DNA of 40,877 nt from Dysgonomonas sp. Marseille-P4677 (lineage in GTDB: Bacteria; Bacteroidota; Bacteroidia; Bacteroidales; Dysgonomonadaceae), in contig NZ_JAEPKU010000023.1 in the NCBI RefSeq assembly GCF_016652235.1, forward strand, positions 1-40,877. The letters run 5' to 3'. Positions 9,546 to 40,877 of this stretch are shown here, piece after piece. Within the stretch, counting starts at the first letter, position 1. Each line of letters starts with the position of its first letter. The position numbers and the translations under genes are program-made. A model generated the notes under the pieces. The model did not search any database, was not told the origin of the DNA, and was given only the letters and a program-made list of their open reading frames with translations.

Positions 9546-10386
9546 GAACGTCAGGAAAATAATTATACTAACTATTTTTATACTTACACCTTGTTTATGT
9601 GTATTGTATGGTTATTTTGAAGCTCGACATATCGTTATTAAAAAAATAACTTTTTCTCACAATGATATTCCTGAGTCCTTTAATGGGAAGAAAATCATTT
9701 TTATATCCGATATTCATTGTGACAACTATTTTCCTGTTAAAAAAGTGGCAGATCTTGTTGATATAATCAATGAGCGAAATCCTGATATAATTATCATAGG
9801 AGGTGACAATGTTCGTAAAGACACAACATACTTTACTCCCTTCTTTAAAGAAATCAGTAATTTGAAAAGTAAATATGGTGTATATACGGTCTTGGGTAAT
9901 CACGATCATTGGGAAGACCCACAACTTATACAACAGGGCTTTAGAGATTGTAAATTTTATATTTGTGACAATCAAGGCTATTGGATAAAGGAAGACAATG
10001 ACAGCATTCGAATTGGCGGAGTCGGAGATTTTTGGGAAGATAAACAGCTTTTAGAAAATACGACACAAGATGTCAAAAAATCAGATTTCTGCATTCTTCT
10101 ATCTCACAACCCTGATTACATGGAAAATCTAAATAGCAATCTGGTCGACCTTGTTTTGTCTGGACACACACATGGAGGACAAATTACCCTTTTGGGGCTA
10201 TGGGCTCCTATAATGCCAAGTTCGATGCATCCCGAATATCTTCAAACGGGTCAAAAGTATAGATATGGCTGGAAAGAGAAAGATAATATCAGGGTGTATA
10301 TTACCTCTGGAATTGGAATGGGAGGTTTTCCTTTTCGTTTTTTTGCACCTCCGGAGATTGTAGAGTTTACATTGAGTAATAAATAA
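9535..10386 (+). CDS. Membrane-anchored calcineurin-like metallophosphoesterase
   Basis: Two-metal phosphoesterase of the YkuE/LpxG-like class; the substrate is not determined by the sequence (lipid or UDP-sugar pyrophosphates are known for relatives). The 283 residues begin with a signal anchor (about 8-27). All five metal motifs are present: Asp59-x-His61 in ISDIHCD, Asp91 in IGGDN, Asn122-His123 in GNHDHW, His191 in LLSHNPD, and His211-Thr-His213 in SGHTHGGQ. ATG at 9535 lies inside the end of ppa (11-bp overlap), so expression is coupled to pyrophosphatase. The operon ends at the terminator 10385-10417. Confidence 0.88.
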   Translation: MKSKNVRKIIILTIFILTPCLCVLYGYFEARHIVIKKITFSHNDIPESFNGKKIIFISDIHCDNYFPVKKVADLVDIINERNPDIIIIGGDNVRKDTTYFTPFFKEISNLKSKYGVYTVLGNHDHWEDPQLIQQGFRDCKFYICDNQGYWIKEDNDSIRIGGVGDFWEDKQLLENTTQDVKKSDFCILLSHNPDYMENLNSNLVDLVLSGHTHGGQITLLGLWAPIMPSSMHPEYLQTGQKYRYGWKEKDNIRVYITSGIGMGGFPFRFFAPPEIVEFTLSNK

Positions 10387-39336: not shown

Positions 39337-39410
39337 GGCGGGATAGCTCAGATGGTTAGAGCGCATGATTCATAATCATGAGGTCCGGGGTTCAATTCCC
39401 CGTCCCGCTA
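39337..39410 (+). tRNA. tRNA-Met (anticodon CAT)
   Basis: A full cloverleaf can be drawn in 74 nt: acceptor GGCGGGA with TCCCGCT (first pair G-U), D arm GCTC/GAGC, anticodon arm CATGA-TTCATAA-TCATG with anticodon CAT, T arm CGGGG-TTCAATT-CCCCG, discriminator A. CCA is not encoded. The paired position 1-72 (rather than the C-A mismatch of initiators) suggests elongator tRNA-Met; a tRNA-Ile2 with modified CAT cannot be wholly excluded. Confidence 0.95.
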
Positions 39411-39422
39411 CACTGAAAATGA

Positions 39423-39453
39423 GAGGTTTACAAGAAATTGTGAGCCTCTTTTT
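39423..39453 (+). terminator. Intrinsic terminator after tRNA-Met
   Basis: GAGGTTTACAA (39423-39433) pairs over 11 positions (two G-U) with TTGTGAGCCTC (39438-39448) around a GAAA tetraloop, followed by TTTTT. It begins 12 nt after the tRNA. Confidence 0.85.
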
Positions 39454-39460
39454 ATTTAAG

Positions 39461-39533
39461 GTGTAAACATAGTGTAAACTAATCGGGTGTAAACACCGTT
39501 TTTACTGAGACTCTCTACCAATACGGTGTAAAC
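39461..39533. repeat. Four copies of the octamer GTGTAAAC beside tRNA-Met
   Basis: Exact copies at 39461-39468, 39472-39479, 39487-39494 and 39526-39533, all in the same orientation, with steps of 11, 15 and 39 nt. A fifth, inverted GTTTAC core lies in the tRNA terminator stem (39426-39431). The cluster resembles protein-binding arrays such as recombinase arm sites. The rest of 39534-39661 holds nothing I can support. Confidence 0.6.
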
Positions 39534-39661
39534 GCATATCTCCTAAAACTTTCTCCATTCCACAAAAAACAGAAGTCTTTTATTGATACCTCATCTATGG
39601 GTGGGTGTACCCCCTAAATGAAACTTACATATTCGCCCCAATCCGATGAGAAAATATTTTT

Positions 39662-40877
39662 TTATTTTTTTTCTAAATAATTACTCACAATATCCCTAAA
39701 CTCAGTATCTAAGCTAATTTTATCTTCGCATATAAGATTTACAAATATTTGGGTTTCAAAAATACCATTATTTACACGTTTCAGATATTTTTTCAAGTCT
39801 ATTAATTCATTAAACAAGTATTCTTGTTTCTTTAGCATCCATTTACAAGAAAATAAGCAATTAGAATTATTACTACATGGCTTAAGTTCATCATCTAGAA
39901 TTTCAATAGATATTCCATTGCTTGTGTTTTTAGCCAAATAACCTTTACACGTAGAAGGGGCATCTACTTTTGTAAATTGCTTCGTATTTAGATATATATC
40001 TATGTTAACGATTTCATCTATGGCATTTTTTTCTAAAGGACTATTAATCATCTTGGAATCCTTTAGTTTATAATCCAATTTGACATCACATTTATCCGTA
40101 ACCAAATGTGATATCCAATGGAACTGGGATATATGTTCCATGTGCCTAATATTCTCTTTTAAAATATAATAGCTAACTCTATCCTTACACATATCTAAAA
40201 GGTCAGCTAACCTCAACAAAATCATTAAATACTTGACACTATAGATATCCGTAGACCCTTTGGATTTTCGTCCGTATACTTCATAAGAATAAAAACCATG
40301 AGCCTCAGAAACATCTGCAACAATTTGTAAATGTGTTTTCTCTAGAAAACTGAGATATGTATCTTTTATTTTAATTATAAACTGAGCACTTTGTTTAGGG
40401 TGCTTTCCTCTTACTTCATTCTCAAAAAAGGAGAATACCTTTTTGAAATATTTTAGTAGTAACGTTTTGGTGTCTATCTTCTTAGTTGAAGAATCTTCTA
40501 AGATATATTCTGTAAAAATAGTATCGCTAGCATTTTTTTCGGTTTTAAAATCATCTAAATTAGGATGAACAACCATGCTAATATCATGCAAATAACAAGC
40601 AAGGAATAATAAATAAAAGTCAATATCTTTCAATCTAAAATAATCTATTGCTCTAGTCAACTTTAATGTCTGTTGAATTAATTCAATAGCATGCTCTTCA
40701 TTATGAAGAGTATAAAAGTGAAGAAACTTAGACCCATTTTTCCATAATCCGTTTACTAACTTGTGTACGATAATGAGTGAATCTACATAGTTAGGTTGTT
40801 TCACTCTTTTTATAAATATGTGGAGTACTTCAAATATCTTGGAATCTACCTTTTCTGGGGTTTTATCTTCTTTTGAT
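39662..40877 (-). CDS. Partial HD-domain protein, conflict-system-like (5' end outside window)
   Basis: Metal-dependent phosphohydrolase-type HD domain, C-terminal 404 residues only. The frame stays open to the window edge; the GTG at 40804 is unlikely to be the start because the 24 codons before it also read as ordinary protein. Counting from that GTG: His34/His38 (LHNEEHA), His73-Asp74 (YLHDISM), Arg132-x-x-His135-x-x-x-Ser139 (VRGKHPKQSA), His169 (SEAHGFYS) and Asp201 (LLRLADLLDMCKDRV). The long insert with R-x-x-H-x-x-x-S and the LRLADLLD ending resemble HD domains found with Hsp90-like ATPases in conflict proteins, more than RelA/SpoT or dGTPase types; this is from memory. The C-terminal 170 residues contain Cys pairs near 285-316 and match nothing I know. 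It converges on tRNA-Met. Confidence 0.65.
   Translation of the reverse strand, partial: SKEDKTPEKVDSKIFEVLHIFIKRVKQPNYVDSLIIVHKLVNGLWKNGSKFLHFYTLHNEEHAIELIQQTLKLTRAIDYFRLKDIDFYLLFLACYLHDISMVVHPNLDDFKTEKNASDTIFTEYILEDSSTKKIDTKTLLLKYFKKVFSFFENEVRGKHPKQSAQFIIKIKDTYLSFLEKTHLQIVADVSEAHGFYSYEVYGRKSKGSTDIYSVKYLMILLRLADLLDMCKDRVSYYILKENIRHMEHISQFHWISHLVTDKCDVKLDYKLKDSKMINSPLEKNAIDEIVNIDIYLNTKQFTKVDAPSTCKGYLAKNTSNGISIEILDDELKPCSNNSNCLFSCKWMLKKQEYLFNELIDLKKYLKRVNNGIFETQIFVNLICEDKISLDTEFRDIVSNYLEKK

Follow-up and report, generated by a model that had tools for sequence, protein, structure and literature searches.

Contig C138 of Dysgonomonas sp. Marseille-P4677 breaks off inside a gene that lies next to a tRNA. 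This raises the question of what the gene is, what preceded its remaining part, and whether a defence island begins here. The DNA analysed, termed the window below, is 40,877 bases long and is the entire contig, one of 278 in a 4.73-Mb genome assembly. The gene is represented by an open frame at 39662-40876 on the minus strand, which has 404 codons, a stop at 39662-39664 and no start before the window ends; its truncation is therefore the end of the assembly. The GC content of positions 39662-40877 is 28.7%, a value equally low in 5 of 382 overlapping slices of the remaining window, and by itself it would not single out this region.

By its sequence, the frame is assigned to the C-terminal portion of a reverse transcriptase (RT) of UG24, a catalogued group of defence-associated RTs. 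Residues 4-403 match the PADLOC RT_UG24 profile (E 6.5e-149, profile positions 648-1036), and residues 54-268 (window 40073-40717, minus strand) match the Pfam family HD-CE (PF24391; E 4.1e-23; score 82.8 bits, Pfam cut-off 27). Both matches are far above chance, and there are relatives at 91% and 55% identity. HD-CE belongs to the HD superfamily, whose members hydrolyse phosphate bonds, and is linked to Hsp90 conflict systems; a literature search found no source paper for the family. The HD motifs are kept in all four aligned rows that include the HD part. The motifs of the frame are LHNEEH (residues 57-62, window 40691-40708), LHDIS with its H-D pair (residues 96-100, 40577-40591), SEAHG (residues 190-194), and LRLADLLD with the last aspartate of the domain (residues 221-228, 40193-40216), and LHNEEH, LHDIS and R-x-A-D-L-L-D are invariant in the four rows. 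The preliminary description, which was made from the letters of the DNA, had recognised the HD motif order and an R-x-x-H-x-x-x-S insert, found as R-G-K-H-P-K-Q-S within residues 155-163, and had suggested an HD-CE-type module. The profile search that it proposed bears this out, but its “terminal” LRLADLLD is followed by another 176 residues.

The N-terminal partner of the HD domain is found elsewhere in the same genome. A search with the RT_UG24 profile gives two places, the window frame and C38:10314-12269 (profile positions 2-619), and the latter lies within 659 N-terminal codons (C38 10293-12269) that run to the end of contig C38 with no stop. This part includes YVDD, the YxDD catalytic motif, and the window part begins after the RT. 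The RT motifs FFPSI, QGLP and YVDD are kept in all four rows with an RT part, namely C38 and three relatives, L006, L007 and L017. When both contig ends are placed on the related Bacteroides cellulosilyticus locus L006, C38 ends at position 9913 and the window at 10000, which leaves a gap of 86 bp. DNA identity to L006 is 77% and 82% for two pieces of C38, between which part of L006 was masked in the comparison, and 86% for the window end. When searched against the assembly, the 86-bp stretch yields no match better than E 0.1, and none covers more than 31 of its 86 bases. Because the profile halves are complementary, the gap on L006 is short and the gap sequence has no good match elsewhere, the simplest account by a wide margin is a single gene divided between two contigs, in which C138 would join C38 at this point.

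There is a small chance that the gene is instead broken in the host by an insertion between the contig ends, so that the window holds a mere remnant. The assembly does stop inside the gene on both sides, and a remnant exists in a sister genome (G010; 153 residues, 90% identity, in L008). Nevertheless, both halves stay open up to their contig ends, the ends leave 86 bp on L006 where a target duplication would give an overlap, nothing in the assembly matches that stretch well, and the motifs of both the HD and RT domains are intact. A single gene interrupted by the assembly accounts for these observations more simply.

Finding the RT half also settles a different possibility, namely that the frame encodes an HD hydrolase with a housekeeping role or acting alone, or else an HD-CE protein of the Hsp90-like kind. 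The preliminary description had likened the frame to the HD modules of Hsp90-like conflict proteins, and such an arrangement does occur in the genus: in G010, one protein (L018 7662-10646, minus strand; contig C11 of that genome) combines HD-CE (E 4.9e-51) with HATPase_c_3, an Hsp90-like ATPase. The HD domain family is the same, but HD-CE stands N-terminal to the Hsp90-like part there and C-terminal to an RT here, and the protein of the window gene has no Hsp90-like ATPase. The RT_UG24 match across residues 4-403 and the RT half on C38 refute this possibility, which now has next to no probability, and 24 sister genomes show at most the G010 remnant or weak partial matches. Both identities, as a housekeeping hydrolase and as an Hsp90-like protein, were accordingly rejected. 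The gene for the G010 fusion protein adjoins genes that look by eye like those of a nucleotidyltransferase and of mobilisation functions.

Intact relatives of the gene exist in other genomes. L007, from a Tannerella metagenome-assembled genome, encodes a protein of 1,086 aa (RT_UG24 1,131 bits, profile positions 2-1034 of 1036), and L017, from genome G134, encodes one of 1,126 aa (1,231 bits, positions 2-1035 of 1036). Like the two halves in the host genome, they match the UG24 reverse transcriptases of PADLOC, which are listed among the defence-associated RTs (DRTs), nearly from end to end and in the order RT then HD-CE, with no difference found. What is added here to the PADLOC model is a small partner gene and, in the host genome, adjoining Avs2 and metallo-beta-lactamase (MBL) genes. 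UG24 has been catalogued in PADLOC-DB (2023), and hence this is not an undescribed system, as the preliminary description had thought possible. Among the PMC papers found for UG24, no phage or enzyme test of the group was found, and the one paper devoted by its title to bacterial RTs names UG24 once, in a table. A PDB sequence search matched no solved structure, an NCBIfam search of the window part of the RT gene and a PHROGs search of four proteins gave no match, and AlphaFold confidence was poor (mean pLDDT 34.5 for full-length L007 and 37.8 for the window part), so that neither a helical-repeat middle nor the HD fold found support in structure prediction.

In each of the four loci, a small gene immediately precedes the RT gene; it encodes 172 aa on C38, 171 aa in L006, 186 aa in L007 and 225 aa in L017. 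Its product matches the RTas1299 family weakly (E 1e-4 to 2e-3), with no match for the L017 counterpart. The latter is also not found by tblastn with the C38 small protein and is 19% identical to the L007 small protein; its kinship with the others is putative and unproven. The DNA similarity to L006 sets in 27 bp ahead of the small gene and extends to window position 39663, inside the RT stop codon. In addition, ten C38 and C11 proteins were compared at 1e-5, eight of them from the element described below and two either unassigned or from the C11 flank. A match in L006 or L007 is seen for just two of the ten, the small protein and the RT half, and in L017 for the RT half alone. These limits of DNA similarity and these protein matches single out the small gene and the RT-HD-CE gene as the two-gene unit that the relatives have in common.

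The order of domains in this unit resembles that of class 3 UG/Abi RTs, which are defined, in the account given by PMC13275509, by the fusion of the RT to a domain of the nitrilase or phosphohydrolase type. In the same account, DRT1 consists of RT, helical repeat and nitrilase, and its DNA synthesis is template-free, protein-primed and controls the effector; the RT classes are also summarised in PMC13174585. The single L007 protein, which is matched by both RVT_1 and HD-CE, agrees with the domain definition insofar as HD-CE, from its superfamily, would be a phosphohydrolase. UG24 shares with class 3 and DRT1 an RT towards the N-terminus, a long middle and a C-terminal hydrolase, but has HD-CE in place of nitrilase and an extra small gene, and the likeness is one of domain order. 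On this analogy, the best reading of the RT-HD-CE protein and its small partner is a class-3-like DRT.

It is improbable, though somewhat less so than a broken gene, that the same gene instead belongs to a class 2 DRT, in which a non-coding RNA (ncRNA) inside or overlapping the genes would template repeat DNA. The RT part has side matches to the DRT profiles UG17 (class 2), Drt1a (class 3) and UG6. Its best DRT profile other than UG24 is UG17 for both C38 (L002) and L017, and UG17 is DRT10, a class 2 system templated by ncRNA as PMC12632851 presents it. However, in L017 the score of Drt1a is about equal to that of UG17, in L006 Drt1a ranks first among the DRT profiles after UG24, and the RT part of L007 matches no DRT profile other than UG24. 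The position of the genes can be read both ways. The RT genes of L007 and L017 either overlap the adjoining genes or stand 1-2 bases away from them, which leaves no room there for a separate neighbouring ncRNA; intergenic room is present in L006 and behind the RT gene of the host (about 250 bp), and an ncRNA could also lie inside or antisense to the genes. In C38 and the window end, Rfam detects no family other than the tRNA, though Rfam need not include such ncRNAs. A class-3-like DRT continues to be the preferred reading.

The neighbourhood of the gene points to mobility. ARAGORN places a tRNA-Met (cat) at 39337-39411 on the plus strand, with its 3′ end facing the RT gene, in agreement with the preliminary description, which had pointed to the tRNA as a usual site of integration. 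The last 46 bases of this tRNA gene (39366-39411) recur exactly at C11:2278-2323, about 150 bp from a tyrosine-integrase gene (C11:805-2124, minus strand), and the 46-bp repeat may represent the attachment site. When the last 22 bases of tRNA-Met are searched with up to 2 mismatches, they occur in only two places in the genome, the copy at 39366-39411 and that on C11. A direct repeat of the tRNA 3′ end and an integrase gene are therefore both present, and would be linked across the contigs. The element would end between the repeat and the RT stop (39412-39661), and the DNA match to L006 ends at 39663. The start of C11, C38 and the end of C138 probably make up one element of about 16 kb, in which all three parts would have a consistent orientation and more contigs may lie between C11 and C38.

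The same site can be followed in related genomes. The tRNA-Met flank is present in 23 of 24 sister genomes (G006 is without a match), and 17 of these 23 were examined, G011, G013, G014, G022, G023 and G024 being left out. All 17 stretches have the tRNA-Met, but none has a match downstream of it, at 1e-5, to the small gene, either half of the RT gene, MBL or Avs2, and the gene is consequently not a constant companion of this tRNA among relatives. In two of the 17 (G020 and G008), a second partial copy of the tRNA follows about 14-16 kb on, beside an integrase that shares 31-32% identity with the C11 enzyme; the exact repeats in these two genomes measure only 18 and 15 bases. In a third genome, G012, the integrase match is partial and weaker (E 9e-7). 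Beyond the second tRNA copy, the genes of G020 resemble by eye those directly behind the tRNA in G002. The gene on C11 beyond the repeat (GH97-like by eye) stands behind this tRNA in none of the 17 stretches, so that there is no empty site matching the host’s own flank. Elements with differing cargo have used the tRNA-Met as an insertion site, and no empty site for the host’s insertion was found in the 17 stretches.

Other traces of insertion are seen at this tRNA. The G008 element (L069 5672-12922) contains a gene of 295 aa that looks by eye like a nucleotidyltransferase, together with open frames of 1,404 and 656 aa, and possibly represents other defence cargo. In G019 (L055 1316-1551) and G012 (L061 1728-1962), a 5′ part of tRNA-Met, cut near the anticodon, occurs about 110-125 bases before the intact copy. 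These cut 5′ parts are perhaps left over from a previous insertion that used the same crossover point.

C38 bears genes of a probable second defence unit in front of the RT half. In order towards the RT, these are genes for DUF3853 and DUF5906, three small ORFs (153-168 aa, with no Pfam match), Avs2, an MBL gene and the small gene. Avs2 is a STAND gene of 1,585 aa that matches the PADLOC profile almost from end to end (1,970 bits). Its residues 17-235 match the N-terminus of RT_UG9_large and its residues 17-376 match the LmuA model; Pfam gives no trypsin-like protease match in the N-terminus, which may nonetheless be read as a trypsin-like protease part. The MBL-fold gene overlaps the Avs2 gene by 14 bp and matches the PADLOC RT-associated MBL family RTasMBL (E 3.6e-51). 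Pairs of an MBL pro-nuclease with a trypsin have been published for AVAST, Lamassu, Hachiman and DRT, and the MBL gene is typically upstream in such nuclease-protease pairs as PMC12799240 describes them. The genes on C38 are like these pairs in the STAND protein with a protease-like N-terminus and the adjoining MBL gene, but the MBL gene stands downstream both here and in G359, and the pair would be a neighbour of the RT unit rather than a part of it.

The existence of RTasMBL in PADLOC was the reason to consider the MBL gene as part of the RT unit, and, going further, Avs2, MBL, the small protein and RT-HD-CE might constitute one composite system. All four genes are on the same strand, with gaps of 4-12 bp or the 14-bp overlap, and MBL-protease pairs are reported with DRTs too in PMC12799240. 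Yet neither MBL nor Avs2 has a match in L006, L007 or L017, where L007 begins about 700 bp upstream of the small gene and so covers the near neighbourhood only. Moreover, the nearest other MBL relative found (G359) follows an Avs2 C-terminus (56% identity) and has no RT match within 8 kb. For this reason, the MBL gene probably goes with Avs2 rather than with the RT unit; its place in the RT unit was set aside after these comparisons, and a composite of all four genes is unlikely. Seven of the eight MBL hits in relatives were covered, with G202 left out. At L015 3928-9757 and L079 2-1870, the MBL gene lies downstream of the Avs2 gene, and in L084 (6478-12070, G236) an MBL gene overlaps the gene of a 1,527-aa protein, possibly another protease-STAND pair.

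With Avs2 and MBL beside the RT half, C38 looks like a defence island. Together with the 46-bp repeat beside the integrase gene and the other elements at the same tRNA, this makes it most likely that the window touches an integrated defence island, whose possible edge the preliminary description had placed here. The search for neighbours that it had called for yielded the integrase, Avs2 and MBL genes. Its further remark that the frame is the only gene of the window with no housekeeping or nutrient role was checked in part: among 28 other ORFs of at least 200 aa, overlapping frames included, ten were scanned, and none matches a PADLOC model at 1e-5. Nine of the ten have a Pfam family at 1e-5, none judged to be of defence type, and one is without a family.

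UG24 looks rare in the sampled genomes. At E 1e-3, RT_UG24 matches 6 of the 25 genomes of the genus, namely the host, G010 with its remnant and its HD-CE-Hsp90 protein, and four genomes with weak matches to the RT part (E 5e-4 to 3e-9); beyond the G010 remnant, the 24 sister genomes show only weak partial matches. At E 1e-30, matches occur in 2 of 393 genomes sampled from the order and 1 of 395 from the phylum, with the host counted in both. When the order search around G134 was repeated with 11 genomes, only G134 matched. No relatives were found in plasmid and phage records, and none was confirmed by tblastn in viral contigs, where single-protein queries find close relatives only. The G010 remnant (L008 2929-3387, contig C47 of that genome) corresponds to the last 153 residues of the gene. 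It sits between the gene of a CBS-domain-like membrane protein and HTH/HipA-like genes (names given by eye), and the surrounding 13 kb contain no tRNA. The host genome contains a second reverse transcriptase, at L004 1501-2046 (G000:C236:73006-73551), with RVT_1 matched at E 3e-23 in an open frame of 419 codons. In B. cellulosilyticus, the two-gene unit adjoins the 3′ end of a tmRNA gene (L006 11600-11994), another usual insertion site, and a serine recombinase gene lies about 3.5 kb upstream of the unit; within 21 kb, the tmRNA end has no clear second copy that could serve for attachment.

Overall, the best explanation, which is favoured with some reserve, is that the UG24 RT-HD-CE protein and its small partner form a two-gene anti-phage unit in a tRNA-Met element, where DNA synthesis with no RNA template would control HD-CE and harm the infected cell. 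The unit is laid out as an RT domain, a long unassigned middle and an HD-CE hydrolase domain, with the 172-aa gene just upstream. It would be carried, beside a second defence unit of Avs2 with its protease-like N-terminus and the MBL pro-nuclease, by an integrative element of about 16 kb, inserted in tRNA-Met by the tyrosine integrase. The RT would make DNA with no separate ncRNA template, the protein itself probably acting as primer. This synthesis would control how the HD-CE domain assembles or is gated. Infection by a phage would then free the HD domain, which may cut a phosphate-containing small molecule such as a nucleotide, or a nucleic acid, and the infected cell would be stopped. Gating by the RT product and release upon infection are proposed because UG24 shares its order of parts with class 3 and DRT1.

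UG24 fuses an RT to an HD domain that is also found with an Hsp90-like ATPase. A more tentative extension, held with rather less than even confidence, is that UG24 represents a distinct mode of RT immunity in which template-free DNA gates a fused HD-CE, and that HD-CE is a shared effector adopted by different sensors, either an Hsp90-like ATPase or an RT. The intact relatives would serve as test genes for the question of whether hydrolases apart from nitrilase can be activated by DNA synthesis.
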